DNA of 64,000 nucleotides from Rhodovulum visakhapatnamense (lineage in GTDB: Bacteria; Pseudomonadota; Alphaproteobacteria; Rhodobacterales; Rhodobacteraceae): NCBI RefSeq assembly GCF_004365965.1, contig NZ_SOEB01000007.1, positions 1 to 64,000 on the forward strand, read 5' to 3'. Under the pieces are notes generated by a model. The model did not search any database. It was not told the DNA's origin and saw only the letters and a list, made by a program, of their open reading frames with translations. Numbering within the stretch: the first letter of the stretch is position 1; each line of letters begins with the position of its first letter. The translations under genes and the position numbers were made by a program. Of this stretch, positions 14,658 through 20,904 are shown one piece after another.

Positions 14658-14772
14658 CGGCCGGAACACCCGCGCTGCCGCGATCTGCCGGTCCGGCCGC
14701 GTCAGGCCGCGCGGTTGCACTTGCGCCGGTGCCGCCCTAGAAGCGGGCGTCAATGTGGTGTGGGGTCAAGAG

Positions 14773-15549
14773 ATGCAGCCGCCCGAGGAGTTCTTTCAGC
14801 TTCGTCTGGCCCGAGGCGAGGCCGACCTGATGGCCGCTCAGCGCCTGCGCTACGAGGTTTTCGTGGCCGAGCTGGGGGCGGACGGGCCGCTGGTGGACCA
14901 TGAGGCGCGGCTGGAACGCGACGATCTGGACCCGCATTTCGACCATCTGATCCTGATCGACACAAGGCGCGACGCGGCGGCGCTTGACCATGTGGTGGGG
15001 GTCTACCGGTTGCTGACCTCGGACCGGGCGGCTGCCATCGGGCGGTTCTACAGCGAGGACGAATACGACCTGTCGGCGCTGAAGGCCTCGGGGCGGCGGC
15101 TGCTGGAGCTGGGCCGGTCCTGCGTGCATCCCGACTATCGCGGCGGCACCGCGCTGTATCACCTGTGGAACGGGCTGGCCGATTACGTGCTCGACCAGGG
15201 GATCGAGGTGCTGTTCGGGGTGGCAAGCTTTCATGGCACCGATGCCCGGGCGCTGGCCGAGCCGCTGTCCTATCTGCATCACCGCCATCTGGCGCCTTCG
15301 GACCTGCGGGTCCGGGTCCTGCCCGAGCATTTCCAGCGGATGGACCTGATGCCCGAGTCCGAGATCGACCGCAAACGCGCGATGCTGGCAATGCCCGCGC
15401 TGATCAAGGCCTATCTGCGGCTTGGCGGCTTCGTGGGCGAGGGCGCCTTCATCGACCGGGCCTTCAACACCACCGATGTGTGCCTTCTGATGGACACCGC
15501 CAAGATGAACGAGAAAAGCCGGTCGCGCTACGGGCGGGGTCAGGGGTGA
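14773..15549 (+). CDS. olsB: L-ornithine N(alpha)-acyltransferase
   Basis: This GNAT-fold protein of 258 residues matches OlsB, which moves a 3-hydroxyacyl chain from ACP to ornithine to make lyso-ornithine lipid. Visible motifs include AAQRLRYEVFVAELG near the N-terminus and ELGRSCVHPDYRGG, which ends the acyl-donor-binding core. The downstream olsA overlaps it by four bases, which confirms the pathway. A GTG start at 14755 would add six residues and neither start has a strong ribosome-binding site. A CtrA-type box lies upstream. Confidence 0.88.
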   Translation: MQPPEEFFQLRLARGEADLMAAQRLRYEVFVAELGADGPLVDHEARLERDDLDPHFDHLILIDTRRDAAALDHVVGVYRLLTSDRAAAIGRFYSEDEYDLSALKASGRRLLELGRSCVHPDYRGGTALYHLWNGLADYVLDQGIEVLFGVASFHGTDARALAEPLSYLHHRHLAPSDLRVRVLPEHFQRMDLMPESEIDRKRAMLAMPALIKAYLRLGGFVGEGAFIDRAFNTTDVCLLMDTAKMNEKSRSRYGRGQG

Positions 15550-16361
15550 GCACCTGGCGCGGCGCCGCGCCGCCCGAGGCGCCCCCGATCGACGCGGCGG
15601 GCTGGCTGCGGGTCGCGCTGCGCGGCGGGGCGCTGATCGCGGTGCTTTGTGTTGGCATGATGCTGAAACTGACGCTTCGGCTGGTCGAACGGCCGCTTTT
15701 CGGGCTGAGGCGGCCGGTGACGCCCTGGATCACCCAAGGGGTCAGCCGGGCCGCGCTGGCGATCCTCGGGATGCGCTACCGGCGACGGGGGCGGCCGATG
15801 CGCGAACGCGGCGCGCTGGTCGCGAACCATGCCTCCTGGCTTGACATCTTTGCGCTGAACGCGGGCGGACGGGTCTATTTCGTCTCGAAGGCCGAGGTCG
15901 CGGACTGGCCCGGGATCGGCTGGCTGGCGCGGGCGGCCGGAACCGTTTTCATTGCCCGCGAAAAGCGCGAGGCAAAGGCCCAGGCTGACCTCTTCGAGAC
16001 GCGGTTGAAGGCCGGGCACCGGCTGGTTTTCTTCCCCGAAGGCACCTCGACCGACGGGCGCCGGGTGCTGCCCTTCAAGTCGACGCTGTTCGCGGCCTTC
16101 TTCGGCGCCGACCTGCGCGACATTCTCTGGGTGCAGCCGGTGACGGTCGTCTACACCGCGCCCGAGGGCGAGGACCCGGCCTTCTATGGCTGGTGGGGCG
16201 ACATGGGCTTTGGCCCGCATGCGCTGAAGCTTCTGGCGACGGCACGCCCCGGCGGGGTCGAGCTGGTCTATCACCCGCCGCTCCGGGTGGCGGAGGCCGA
16301 AAACCGCAAGGCGCTGGCGCTGGCCTGCGAGACGGCGGTGCGGAGCGCCGCCGCAGGCTAG
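15546..16361 (+). CDS. olsA: Lyso-ornithine lipid O-acyltransferase
   Basis: The 271-residue PlsC-like acyltransferase has an N-terminal membrane segment (about residues 18-40), the HxxxxD-type motif in NHASWLDIF and the FFPEGTSTDGR phosphate-binding motif. It adds the second acyl chain to lyso-ornithine lipid at the inner membrane. The GTG start overlaps the olsB stop (GTGA). A 1-acylglycerol-3-phosphate acyltransferase role is the main alternative, but coupling to olsB argues for OlsA. Confidence 0.88.
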   Translation: MSTWRGAAPPEAPPIDAAGWLRVALRGGALIAVLCVGMMLKLTLRLVERPLFGLRRPVTPWITQGVSRAALAILGMRYRRRGRPMRERGALVANHASWLDIFALNAGGRVYFVSKAEVADWPGIGWLARAAGTVFIAREKREAKAQADLFETRLKAGHRLVFFPEGTSTDGRRVLPFKSTLFAAFFGADLRDILWVQPVTVVYTAPEGEDPAFYGWWGDMGFGPHALKLLATARPGGVELVYHPPLRVAEAENRKALALACETAVRSAAAG

Positions 16362-17477: not shown

Positions 17478-18218
17478 ATGACAGCAGCCCAGCCCGTCTT
17501 TGTCCTCGTGCGCCCGCAGATGGGCGAGAATATCGGGGCGGCGGCGCGCGCGATGTGGAATTTCGGGCTCGACCGGATGCGTCTGGTCGATCCGCGCGAC
17601 GGCTGGCCCAATCCGCGCGCGGTGGCGCTGGCCAGTGGCGCGGGGCGGCTTCTGGATCATGCGGGCATCTTTCCCTCGACCGCCGAGGCGGTGGCCGATT
17701 GCGACTATGTCTTCGCCACAACGGCCCGGCCGCGCGGTCTGACGAAACCCGTCGTGACCCCCGAGCAGGCGATGACAGAGACCCGTGCGCTGCTGGCCGA
17801 CGGGCGCCGCGTCGCGGTTTTGTTCGGGCCGGAACGGGCAGGGCTGGAAAACGACGACATCGCCCGGGCCAATGCCATCGTCTCGGTGCCGGTGAACCCC
17901 GACTTTGCTTCGTTGAACCTCGGGCAATGCGTCCTGCTGAGTGCCTATGAATGGCGCCGCCAGACCGCCGAGGTCCTGCCCGAGCGACTGGAAATGGCGG
18001 GGGCCGAGCCTGCGAGCCTTCTGGAGGTCGAGAAGCTCGCCGAGCATTACGAAGAGCGTCTGTCCGAGGCGGGCTTCTTCTTTCCCGAGACCAAGGCGCC
18101 CGGGATGAAGCTGGCGCTGCGCAACATGTGGAGCCGGATGCCGCTGACCCGGCCCGATGTGCAGATCCTGCACGGGATGCTGCGGCAATTGACGCGCGTC
18201 AGGGGGCGCGGCGAGTGA
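17478..18218 (+). CDS. trmJ: tRNA (cytidine/uridine-2'-O-)-methyltransferase TrmJ
   Basis: The 246-residue SPOUT (SpoU-family) methyltransferase has the three knot motifs: RPQMGENIGAAARAM at the N-terminus, LFGPERAGLENDD in the middle and SLNLGQCVLLSAYEW near the end of the knot. TrmJ methylates the ribose of position 32 in tRNA. The C-terminal helical extension, about 80 residues, is typical for TrmJ. GAAGGAAG precedes the ATG. The next gene, a Cox15 homologue, follows on the same strand. Confidence 0.9.
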   Translation: MTAAQPVFVLVRPQMGENIGAAARAMWNFGLDRMRLVDPRDGWPNPRAVALASGAGRLLDHAGIFPSTAEAVADCDYVFATTARPRGLTKPVVTPEQAMTETRALLADGRRVAVLFGPERAGLENDDIARANAIVSVPVNPDFASLNLGQCVLLSAYEWRRQTAEVLPERLEMAGAEPASLLEVEKLAEHYEERLSEAGFFFPETKAPGMKLALRNMWSRMPLTRPDVQILHGMLRQLTRVRGRGE

Positions 18219-18273: not shown

Positions 18274-19419
18274 ATGAGCAAGACCCGCAGCAAGGCAAAG
18301 ACCCGCAGCATCTTCGAGGAGGTCGGCACCGAGGCGCCGCTGGAACGCCCGGTCGTCCAGCCCGGCGCCATCGACCGCGCCGCCCGGCGCGGCGCGCGCG
18401 GGGCCGTGGCCTGGTGGCTGATCTCGGTCTTCGTGCTGATCGCCGCCATGCTGATCGCGGCGGGCGTCGCCCGGCTGACCGGCCATCCGGCGGCCCTTCC
18501 GGGGTTCGGTCCGCTTTACGGGCAGCTGCCGCCCCTGGACCCGGCCGGATGGACGGCCGCCTTTGACCGTTTCACGGCGGCGGGCGGTGCGACCGACCTT
18601 GCGGGCTTCCAGCGGCTTTACTGGTGGGACTGGGGCATCCGCCAGGCAGGGACGCTTGCGGCCCTGGTCTGGGCGCTGGGCTATCTGGGCTTCCTGGTTT
18701 TCGGCAAGCTCCCCAAGGGCTGGGCGCTGCGGCTGTTGCCGCTGGGCGGCACGATCCTCGGGATCGGCGCGGCCGACTGGGCGATGGGGCCCGCGGGACT
18801 TTTGCCCGCGCCCTTCGACGCGGCCTCGCTGCGGCTGGCGGCGATGACGGGCTTCGGCTTTGCCGGGATGGGGCTGTCGGCCTGGGGCGCGATGCTGCTG
18901 CGCCGCCCCGAGGCGCAACTGATGCAGGCGCGGCGTGCCCGCGACGGACGCGCCTTCGGCATGGCGACCGGGGTCATGCATCTGGCCTTCCTGCAGATCC
19001 TGTTCGGAGCGATGCTGGGCGCGCTCGATCAGGGGCGGGGCTTTCCCGACTGGCCGCTGATGGCGGGTGGCATCCTGCCGCCCGAGCCGCTGTCGCTGGA
19101 GCCGGTCTGGCGCAACATCTGGGACAATCCGGGTCTCGTGCAATTCATCCATCGCGGGCTTGGCTATCTGGTCGTGCTGCTGGGGCTTGCGTCCTGGCTG
19201 CGCGGCCGCAAAAGCCCCCATGCCCGCACCCGCCGCGCCTTCGACTGGCTGGGGGTGATGGTCTTCGGGCAGGGGGTGCTGGGTGTCGGGTCCGTGCTTT
19301 ACGCGGGCCAGTGGCATATGGCGCTGACCCATCTGGTGGGCGCCGTCCTTCTGTGGGTTCTGGTGCTGCGCGCCCGGTTCTTGGCGCAATATCCTGTTCA
19401 GCAATCCATTCGGGGGTGA
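18274..19419 (+). CDS. Cox15/CtaA homologue with degenerate catalytic half
   Basis: The 381-residue protein has the eight-helix layout of heme A synthase and starts with the SIFEEVG stretch seen in Rhodobacteraceae Cox15. Cox15/CtaA oxidises heme O to heme A and is two repeated four-helix bundles, each with a histidine pair. The C-terminal half keeps H293 (VQFIHRG) and H353 (ALTHLVG). The N-terminal half is altered: the usual EWGHRQLGR motif reads DWGIRQAGT, with isoleucine at residue 122 and aspartate at 119, and the second histidine region reads LRLAAMTGFGF, with methionine at 191. The frame is intact, so it is not a simple pseudogene. It may be inactive as a heme A synthase or have another heme-related role. 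Confidence 0.8.
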   Translation: MSKTRSKAKTRSIFEEVGTEAPLERPVVQPGAIDRAARRGARGAVAWWLISVFVLIAAMLIAAGVARLTGHPAALPGFGPLYGQLPPLDPAGWTAAFDRFTAAGGATDLAGFQRLYWWDWGIRQAGTLAALVWALGYLGFLVFGKLPKGWALRLLPLGGTILGIGAADWAMGPAGLLPAPFDAASLRLAAMTGFGFAGMGLSAWGAMLLRRPEAQLMQARRARDGRAFGMATGVMHLAFLQILFGAMLGALDQGRGFPDWPLMAGGILPPEPLSLEPVWRNIWDNPGLVQFIHRGLGYLVVLLGLASWLRGRKSPHARTRRAFDWLGVMVFGQGVLGVGSVLYAGQWHMALTHLVGAVLLWVLVLRARFLAQYPVQQSIRG

Positions 19420-19425
19420 CGCGCG

Positions 19426-20904
19426 ATGACCGCCTTTGACGATCTGATGGCCTTCCAGCACGAGACCGAGGCACTGTCGCAGGTCTCGATGCGGCTGGGC
19501 TGGGACCAGGAGACGATGATGCCGCGCGGTGCCGCGCAGCAGCGGGCCGAAGAGATGGCGGCGCTGGAATCGGTGCTGCACCGCCGTCGCACCGACCCGC
19601 GTCTGGGCGACTGGCTGGGGGCCATCGACGACGACCTGCTCGACGAGACCGGACGGGCGCAGATGCGCCATATCCGCCGCAGCTATACCCGCGCGACGCG
19701 CCTGCCCGAGACCTTGTTGGCCGAGATCGCCCGCGTCACAAGCCGCGCCCAGGGGATCTGGGCCGAGGCCCGCGCCGCCGACGATGTCGCGCATTTCCTG
19801 CCCACGCTGCGCGAGGTGGTGCGGCTGAAACGCGAAGAGGCGGCGGCGCTGGCCATGGGCGGCGATCTTTACGACGCGCTTCTCGACGATTACGAGCCCG
19901 GCGCGACGGCGGGGGCGCTGGCCGCGATGTTCGACCGGATGCGCCCGCGTCTGGTGAGCCTGCGCGAACGGATCATGGGCTCGGGCCGGGCGCCCGCACC
20001 GCTTTCGGGCCATTTCCCCGAAGCCGGGCAGATGGCGCTGTCGCGCGAGGTCGCCACGCATTTCGGCTATGACTGGCGGCATGGGCGGCTCGATTTCTCG
20101 GTTCATCCCTTCACCTCGGGGTCGGGCACCGATGTCCGGATCACCACCCGGGTCGACGAGACCGAGCCGCTGGGTTCGCTTTATTCCACACTGCACGAGA
20201 CCGGACATGGCGCCTATGAACAGGGGATCGACCCGGCCTATGGGCTGACGCCCTTGGGGGCCGGCGTCTCGATGGGGGTGCATGAAAGCCAGAGCCGGAT
20301 CTTCGAGAACCAGCTTGGCCGCAGTCGCGCCTTTTGCTCCTGGCTTTTCGGGCGGATGGCCGAGGTCTTCGGCACGGCGGGGGCGGCCGACGCGGATGCC
20401 TTCTATGCGGCGGTCAACCGGGTCCATTCGGGCCATATCCGCACCGAGTCGGACGAGGTGCATTACAACCTGCACATCATGCTGCGCTTCGATCTGGAAC
20501 GCGACCTGATCGCCGGGCGGCTCGAGGTCGAGGATCTGGAAGAGGCCTGGAACACCCGCTTCGAGGCCGATTTCGGGGGTGCGGTCGACCGGCCGCGCAA
20601 TGGGCTCTTGCAGGATGTGCACTGGTCGGTGGGGCTTTTCGGCTATTTCCCGACCTATACGCTGGGCAATGTCTATGCGGGCTGCCTGTATCAGGCGCTG
20701 CGCGCCGCGGTGCCCACGCTCGATGCCGATCTGGCGCGGGGCCATGCCGAACCCGCGACCGCCTGGCTGAAATCCGAGGTGCAGCGGTCCGGCGGGCTTT
20801 ACGAACCGGCCGAGACGATCCGCCGGGCCTGCGGGTTCGCCCCCGGCGAAGGCCCGCTTCTCGATTATCTCGACGCCAAGTTCGGCGAGATCTACGGGCT
20901 TTGA
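19426..20904 (+). CDS. M32-family carboxypeptidase (Taq type)
   Basis: The 492-residue, mostly helical zinc peptidase has the active-site HETGHG and the downstream glutamate in MGVHESQSR. Other M32 signatures are SVHPFTSG, DVRITTR and TESDEVHYNLHI. M32 enzymes remove C-terminal residues from peptides in the cytoplasm. The length is typical. The start is seven bases after the Cox15 homologue's stop, so both are probably in one transcript; the functional link is unclear. Confidence 0.93.
   Translation: MTAFDDLMAFQHETEALSQVSMRLGWDQETMMPRGAAQQRAEEMAALESVLHRRRTDPRLGDWLGAIDDDLLDETGRAQMRHIRRSYTRATRLPETLLAEIARVTSRAQGIWAEARAADDVAHFLPTLREVVRLKREEAAALAMGGDLYDALLDDYEPGATAGALAAMFDRMRPRLVSLRERIMGSGRAPAPLSGHFPEAGQMALSREVATHFGYDWRHGRLDFSVHPFTSGSGTDVRITTRVDETEPLGSLYSTLHETGHGAYEQGIDPAYGLTPLGAGVSMGVHESQSRIFENQLGRSRAFCSWLFGRMAEVFGTAGAADADAFYAAVNRVHSGHIRTESDEVHYNLHIMLRFDLERDLIAGRLEVEDLEEAWNTRFEADFGGAVDRPRNGLLQDVHWSVGLFGYFPTYTLGNVYAGCLYQALRAAVPTLDADLARGHAEPATAWLKSEVQRSGGLYEPAETIRRACGFAPGEGPLLDYLDAKFGEIYGL

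Follow-up and report, generated by a model that had tools for sequence, protein, structure and literature searches.

A Cox15/CtaA-derived membrane protein, probably a maintained pseudoenzyme, in Rhodovulum genomes without an aa3 oxidase

Which role is left for a protein of the heme A synthase family in a bacterium in which no aa3-type oxidase is recognized? This question is raised by a gene of Rhodovulum visakhapatnamense located within a stretch of 64,000 nucleotides, the window of this analysis. The frame 18274..19419 of the plus strand is open for 381 codons without interruption; based on PF02628, NF045570, and alignment, it is predicted to encode a Cox15/CtaA-derived membrane protein of 381 aa that would have lost the catalytic site of its N-terminal half. 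The Pfam profile PF02628 (COX15-CtaA) is matched with 149.7 bits, the curated cut-off being 29.9, over positions 1-321 of 322; superfamily membership is thus evident nearly from end to end of the profile, and the full-length Cox15/CtaA homologue described in the initial annotation is confirmed. NF045570, the NCBIfam equivalog profile of the alphaproteobacterial heme A synthase, is covered from position 2 to 380 of 380, with a score of 393.8 bits that lies below the curated cut-off of 550 and leaves the protein outside the equivalog. In a PDB sequence search, only 8aw5 was found, which is named heme O oxygenase. The frame 18274-19419 is the sole PF02628 match of the whole window genome (80 contigs, completeness 99.98%), by which a second, intact ctaA, for which a search had been proposed, is ruled out.

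The gene is embedded in a conserved neighbourhood. Upstream, at 17478..18218 of the plus strand, lies the gene of a SpoU-family RNA methyltransferase (PF00588), to which we have given the presumed name TrmJ. Downstream, at 19426..20904 of the same strand, an M32 (Taq-type) carboxypeptidase is encoded (PF02074, 535.8 bits), the start of which is found 6 bases past the ctaA stop (19419-19426); ctaA and the M32 gene probably share one transcript. The order trmJ-ctaA-M32 is present in 16 of 16 Rhodovulum genomes. For the family, loci were retrieved by three short patterns and the best 80 of 591 confirmed loci were used, a set that leans to canonical proteins because one of the patterns spans part of the EWGHR region. 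Among these best 80 of 591, M32 is located downstream of ctaA in 79, and trmJ is present in 71, some loci being ended early by contig ends. From the conserved gene order, the inactive and the canonical ctaA genes are concluded to be orthologues.

For yeast Cox15, it is proposed in the relevant parts of PMC13213658 that a conserved N-half Glu carries out catalysis, that the substrate heme o is bound by two N-half His, and that the heme b cofactor is bound by two C-half His; our columns were matched to the yeast residues by motif. The alignment comprises 96 rows, namely, 15 copies from Rhodovulum genomes devoid of the aa3 oxidase, the copy of genome G136 from another genus, and 80 canonical rows, the latter being made up of the remaining Rhodovulum genome, G010, and 79 of the 80 family loci; L037 was omitted, since it is a contig of G002. 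E119, H122, R123, and H191 are invariant throughout all 80 canonical rows (G010 and the best 80 of 591 loci less L037), and so are H293, R294, and H353. The window protein reads DWGIR in place of EWGHR, with Asp119 (18628..18630) for the catalytic Glu and Ile122 (18637..18639) for the first N-half His, and Met191 (18844..18846) replaces the second; His293 (19150..19152) and His353 (19330..19332), the putative C-half heme B ligands, are both retained (all on the plus strand). The ECL1 motif TDSGLSITEW is changed to TGHPAALPGF. As far as its residues go, the protein is thus devoid of the Glu and the His of EWGHR as well as of the second N-half His of a working enzyme, while it possesses the two histidines that would hold a heme B cofactor.

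These losses, which had been noticed in the initial annotation together with the retention of H293 and H353 in the C-terminal repeat, are upheld by the 96-row alignment. A shift of the ligand histidines, named there as a finding that would overturn the reading, is ruled out, as the substituted residues occupy the very columns in which Glu, His, and His are found in 80 of 80 canonical rows (from the best 80 of 591 loci); an alignment with the CtaA of Paracoccus denitrificans agrees with the residue assignments and the ligand losses. Among the 15 aa3-less Rhodovulum rows, the Glu119 column contains D in four, E in two, G in eight, and N in one; the His122 column, from which His is lost in 15 of 15, contains I (three), V (two), R (two), S (seven), and Q (one); and the His191 column contains M (five), E (one), Q (two), and H (seven). 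The combination at 119/122/191 varies by lineage, being D/I or V/M, E/V/M, E/R/E, G/S/H, N/Q/Q, or G/R/Q, and in G003 most of ECL1 is gone as well. His293, Arg294, and His353 are retained in 15 of 15 of these rows, and all three are also present in G136.

The initial annotation had surmised a lineage that lost the aa3 oxidase and had recommended searching the genome for ctaB and cox genes; the surmise is supported by the outcome of that search. The window genome contains a single PF00115 protein, which is assigned as CcoN of a cbb3 oxidase on account of the neighbouring CcoO (named by eye) and of its PDB relatives, which are cbb3-type oxidases. In the same genome, no protein is over the cut-off for CtaB (TIGR01473) or for the aa3-type CtaD (TIGR02891), and CtaG/Cox11 and SURF1 give no match. 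Neither a CtaB that would supply heme O in the same cell nor a heme A-containing oxidase as recipient is therefore recognized, the one heme-copper oxidase being of the cbb3 type. The same picture is obtained across the genus. CtaD passes its cut-off of 670.75 in a single one of the 16 Rhodovulum genomes, with the other 15 giving only CcoN-like matches of 33-43 bits; CtaB (cut-off 210.3) is over in 1 of 16, with at most 90 bits in the others; and CtaG/Cox11 and SURF1 are each over the cut-off in 1 of 16 and without match in the other 15. G010 is the sole genome with CtaD, CtaB, CtaG, and SURF1, and it alone has an intact CtaA. In all 15 aa3-less genomes, among them Rhodovulum sulfidophilum DSM 1374 (G001), a ctaA homologue of 360-387 aa without internal stop is found at the same locus. 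That the oxidase was missed through incomplete assembly is unlikely, given a completeness of 99.98% and the agreement of G001, G003, G013, and G015, which consist of 2-5 contigs. The altered CtaA, present and changed in 15 of 16 Rhodovulum genomes, is no accident of one strain. Because the N-half residues are altered and no heme A pathway is recognized in 15 genomes, it is very unlikely that the protein encoded at 18274-19419 makes heme A.

How often the aa3 oxidase was lost within Rhodovulum is uncertain, since the CtaA tree and the trees of the flanking genes are in conflict. In the CtaA tree, the 15 inactive copies fall together (100/99), whereas in the flank trees G009 falls outside G010 plus the other 14 inactive genomes; the 15 as one clade are rejected by the flanks with an AU p of 0.03 (3 genes, 942 columns) and, in an 8-gene flank tree of 2293 columns including 8 outside loci and G136, of 0.00016. 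Gly195, which is shared by 15 of 15 inactive proteins, is compatible with a single loss in the genus, and the conflict could arise from convergence in the fast N-halves or from recombination at the locus. Vertical inheritance of the aa3 system in G010 would imply two or more losses of aa3 within Rhodovulum. A separate observation concerns G012 (L012/L137), the ctaA of which groups with the window subgroup (98/91), while its flanks group with G011 (100/100); in the CtaA tree, G011 and G012 together are rejected with an AU p of 1e-6. Inactive ctaA was possibly exchanged between Rhodovulum lineages by recombination via the conserved flanks.

A draw of 199 family genomes, one per genus, yielded a PF02628 match in 196. 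A CtaG match is absent in 5 of the 199 (G000, G102, G136, G164, and G178), and the CtaD check in this draw covered these 5 and 7 CtaG-bearing genomes. G102, G164, and G178 were not counted as aa3-less, as their CtaD matches of 571-665 bits are below 670.75 yet far above CcoN. Among the 5, only the window genome and G136 are without a CtaD-like match of more than 50 bits (40 and 28 bits in G136, which was judged by CtaG and CtaD). G136 groups with L098 and L111 (100/100), the latter being Rhodobacter amnigenus, and both of these loci pass all motif checks. In the CtaA of G136, PWSHV stands for EWGHR and SGLSITEW is lost, while His122, His191, His293, and His353 as well as the neighbouring genes are kept. 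By its sequence, G136 is a second aa3-less genus, in which the CtaA motif appears to have been broken independently. In both aa3-less genera recognized in the draw, CtaA is retained at full length while its catalytic motif is broken.

Is the protein then merely a leftover? To judge this, dN/dS values were calculated according to Nei-Gojobori (NG86), the pairs sharing sequences and not being independent. For inactive ctaA, dN/dS is 0.07-0.15 (12 pairs); the same pairs give 0.04-0.25 for four genes of the neighbourhood. The median for inactive ctaA is 0.118 (13 pairs; N-half 0.119, C-half 0.100), and that for canonical ctaA is 0.120 (N-half 0.104, C-half 0.137) in 14 pairs from the best 80 of 591 loci, these being the ones that passed the dS filter out of the 25 most similar tried. 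In a pseudogene or relic, a broken frame or a dN/dS near 1 would be expected; stops are found in 0 of 15 copies, and the median is 0.118. The relic considered in the initial annotation is consequently not supported, both halves being under purifying selection (dN/dS of about 0.12), which speaks in favour of its other suggestion, a new role, or else of a retained second role.

The amount of change that preceded this constraint is considerable and unevenly distributed. Seven inactive copies, picked to represent lineages, have a mean identity of 44.1% over the N-half and 61.1% over the C-half, the latter being higher in 20 of 21 pairs, versus 72.6% and 63.2%, with the C-half higher in 190 of 3081 pairs, for 79 canonical enzymes (from the best 80 of 591 loci), two sets that differ in depth, the former lying within one genus and the latter spanning the family. 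At a matched flank distance of 0.25-0.45, inactive lineages (77 pairs) share 43.5-45.0% of the N-half and 58.1-58.7% of the C-half; the only 2 canonical pairs in this range (best 80 of 591 loci) share 74.7-84.5% and 66.0-82.1%, and 9 canonical pairs from the same set at a flank distance of 0.45-0.6 share 74.2% and 72.9%. That the C-half is as conserved as in working enzymes is thereby ruled out, inactive C-halves being more changed at matched flank distance. Within the larger close inactive group, at a flank distance of 0.25-0.35 (14 pairs), the values are 83.5% (N) and 81.3% (C), similar to 84.5% and 82.1% of the sole canonical pair at that distance (best 80 of 591 loci). Of the 41 C-half columns conserved in at least 95% of canonical rows (best 80 of 591 loci), 30 have survived in 14 or all 15 of the inactive copies and 2 in no more than 3 of them; the respective numbers for the N-half, by the same definition and from the same loci, are 28 of 86 and 28. 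The ratio of CtaA to flank distance has a median of 3.13 between inactive lineages (78 pairs, range 2.1-6.3), of 0.88 (6 pairs) and 0.77 (21 pairs) within two close inactive groups, and of 0.83 for canonical rows (91 pairs; 14 of the best 80 of 591 loci used). Judged from these comparisons, the history appears to be one of a burst of change in both halves after the loss of heme A, far stronger in the N-half, followed by constraint at a normal level.

An AlphaFold2 model of the protein (mean pLDDT 84.9) contains two sets of long helices and some shorter ones. The predicted N-terminal bundle, residues 42-211 (18397..18906, plus strand), comprises helices 42-68, 109-142, 155-171, and 184-209, and the predicted C-terminal bundle, residues 225-372 (18946..19389, plus strand), comprises helices 225-250, 286-311, 317-342, and 347-372. 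In working enzymes, according to the structural parts of PMC13213658, these correspond to the substrate or catalytic half and to the heme B half, respectively. The portions of PMC7327177 on quaternary structure describe a trimer core formed by the C bundles, which hold heme, the role of the heme there being not fully clear; from those of PMC5249081, P. denitrificans CtaA migrates at a size suggesting an oligomer, and neither the oxidase nor its assembly factors were clearly seen to associate with it.

Taken together, we lean towards a maintained CtaA pseudoenzyme that would still bind heme B and would serve a function without need of heme A. After loss of the aa3 oxidase and of the heme A pathway, the N-half active site would have disappeared while the protein was kept by selection. 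The C-terminal bundle would still hold a single heme B, liganded by His293 and His353, as is suggested by the conservation of these two histidines, and would still form the core of an oligomer; the N-terminal bundle, devoid of its heme O site, would now provide a structural or partner-binding surface. His293 and His353 could instead be kept for packing. As to the actual job, membrane heme B handling for, or assembly aid to, cbb3 or another membrane b-type cytochrome is the foremost candidate, if a rather doubtful one; it would represent a second CtaA activity that is normally hidden behind heme A synthesis. Speaking against the cbb3 link, a weak CcoN-like match is also given by 8 of 10 CtaD-bearing genomes checked. 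We put forward somewhat less hesitantly, though still tentatively, that the heme B bundle has an old, heme A-independent second function, that Rhodovulum and G136 are natural separation-of-function mutants for it, and that this function may consist in delivering or buffering heme B for cbb3 or another membrane cytochrome. Once aa3 was lost, the synthase half would have decayed, while the gene would have been kept for this second function. Such a function would normally be masked, and the roles of CtaA are hard to separate, because deletion of ctaA also removes heme A. A point against the pseudoenzyme reading is that the C-half has changed too, since the 77 inactive pairs at a flank distance of 0.25-0.45 share 58-59% of it.

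Other explanations have to be weighed against a maintained heme B-binding pseudoenzyme. The strongest among them, although unlikely, is a new catalytic role, by which the N-terminal bundle would have turned into another heme- or porphyrin-related enzyme, or into a redox protein, while heme B in the C-half continued to serve as cofactor. The burst of change with renewed constraint would be in line with it, and so would new N-half states that are shared among the inactive proteins, namely, Gly195 (18856-18858), present in 15 of 15 inactive Rhodovulum proteins, and Asp168 (18775-18777), present in 12 of the 15, the corresponding residues being Ala195 and Gly168 in both G010 and G136; these two new states could point to a new activity. 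However, G009, G002, and G003 do not have Asp168, the old active site at 119/122/191 differs among lineages, and G003 is without most of ECL1. An idle protein is quite improbable, i.e., a ctaA kept only as an open frame that carries transcription or translational coupling for M32. Coupling would suit the 6 bases between the ctaA stop and the M32 start and the presence of M32 downstream in 16 of 16 Rhodovulum genomes and in 79 of the best 80 of 591 family loci, but it demands an open frame and not given amino acids, whereas both halves have a dN/dS of about 0.12 and none of the 15 copies has lost H293, R294, or H353.

Slow decay, with a heme A synthase relic on its way out and seen soon after the loss of aa3, is very improbable. 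It would account for an N-half that has diverged and is altered differently in each lineage, for CtaA distances between inactive lineages that are 2.1-6.3 times the flank distances, and for a C-half in which change likewise exceeds that of canonical C-halves at comparable distance. Yet no frame is broken in 15 genomes, rates within the recent groups are canonical (median ratios 0.77 and 0.88) with dN/dS again about 0.12, and in the same genomes CtaG and SURF1 have left no match. Hardly credible at all is continued heme A synthesis by a protein whose ligands have been replaced, with heme O coming from an unrecognized synthase and the product going to an unrecognized oxidase. For the window subgroup, Asp119 would indeed be a mild change from Glu, but in other members Glu is replaced by Gly and His by Ser, Arg, or Gln, and the 99.98% complete genome contains one PF00115 protein, CcoN, and no CtaB over the cut-off.

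Compared with known systems, the window protein resembles Rhodobacteraceae CtaA/Cox15 in length, in the two predicted helix bundles, in the C-half His pair, in the N-terminal tail, and in the M32-adjoining locus, but differs from it by the absence of the catalytic Glu, of both N-half His, and of the ECL1 motif, in a genome without CtaG, SURF1, an aa3-type CtaD, or a CtaB over the cut-off. The Rhodobacteraceae heme A synthase is of type 2, without Cys pairs, according to the classification part of PMC8239418. A parallel is provided by the "deranged" proteins of Acetobacteraceae, described in sections of PMC10715153 as COX1-like and bc1 proteins without ligands for which a structural role is proposed; there, too, cofactor ligands are gone and the gene is kept. 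Those cases, as presented in these sections, are oxidase-like or bc1 proteins, whereas the window protein derives from a biosynthetic enzyme, keeps the ligands of one of two heme sites, and has been measured to be under purifying selection; CtaA as a term does not occur in the main text of that source. With a yeast Cox15 variant in which the catalytic Glu166 is replaced, and which gives 12-22% heme o with heme a not detected according to the mutant section of PMC13213658, the window protein has the replaced catalytic Glu in common, but that variant was made in the laboratory, and its host cell possesses the oxidase and continues to produce heme o. The half-length, four-helix archaeal heme A synthase, as treated in parts of PMC7327177 and PMC9145763, also departs from the two-bundle standard; it is an oligomer of single bundles, whereas the window protein has both bundles with one altered site. 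In the accessible portions of the open-licence literature on Rhodovulum, R. capsulatus, and CtaA/Cox15, no account of a maintained inactive CtaA was found, and in those of PMC10654088 Rhodovulum is mentioned only for iron-oxidation operons.

That an intact protein persists after loss of site and pathway suggests that proteins of the CtaA family can serve a further purpose that has yet to be described. Evolution has apparently removed heme A along with its donor and its acceptor, while the protein and its putative heme B ligands were kept, and with R. sulfidophilum DSM 1374, one of the 15, a natural setting for a possible heme A-independent function is at hand. For genome annotation, it follows that a match to the COX15/CtaA family does not imply heme A or an aa3 oxidase.

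Several minor observations were made along the way. In the family draw, G110, G169, and G239 contain CtaG and give no PF02628 match, which is possibly due to assembly gaps or to heme A being made by a different route. In G067, G102, G172, and G188, the weak PF02628 scores come from partial matches; in G035 and G162 the match is split in two within an open frame of 459 aa, and these CtaA proteins may carry an insertion. In P. denitrificans (L167), M32 follows ctaA too, as judged by the start of the M32 sequence, and here again a peptidase gene travels with a heme A synthase gene. Elsewhere in the window, at 14755-16361, a GNAT acetyltransferase (PF13444) is followed by a PlsC-type acyltransferase (PF01553), and this arrangement presumably resembles a pair of the ornithine-lipid type.
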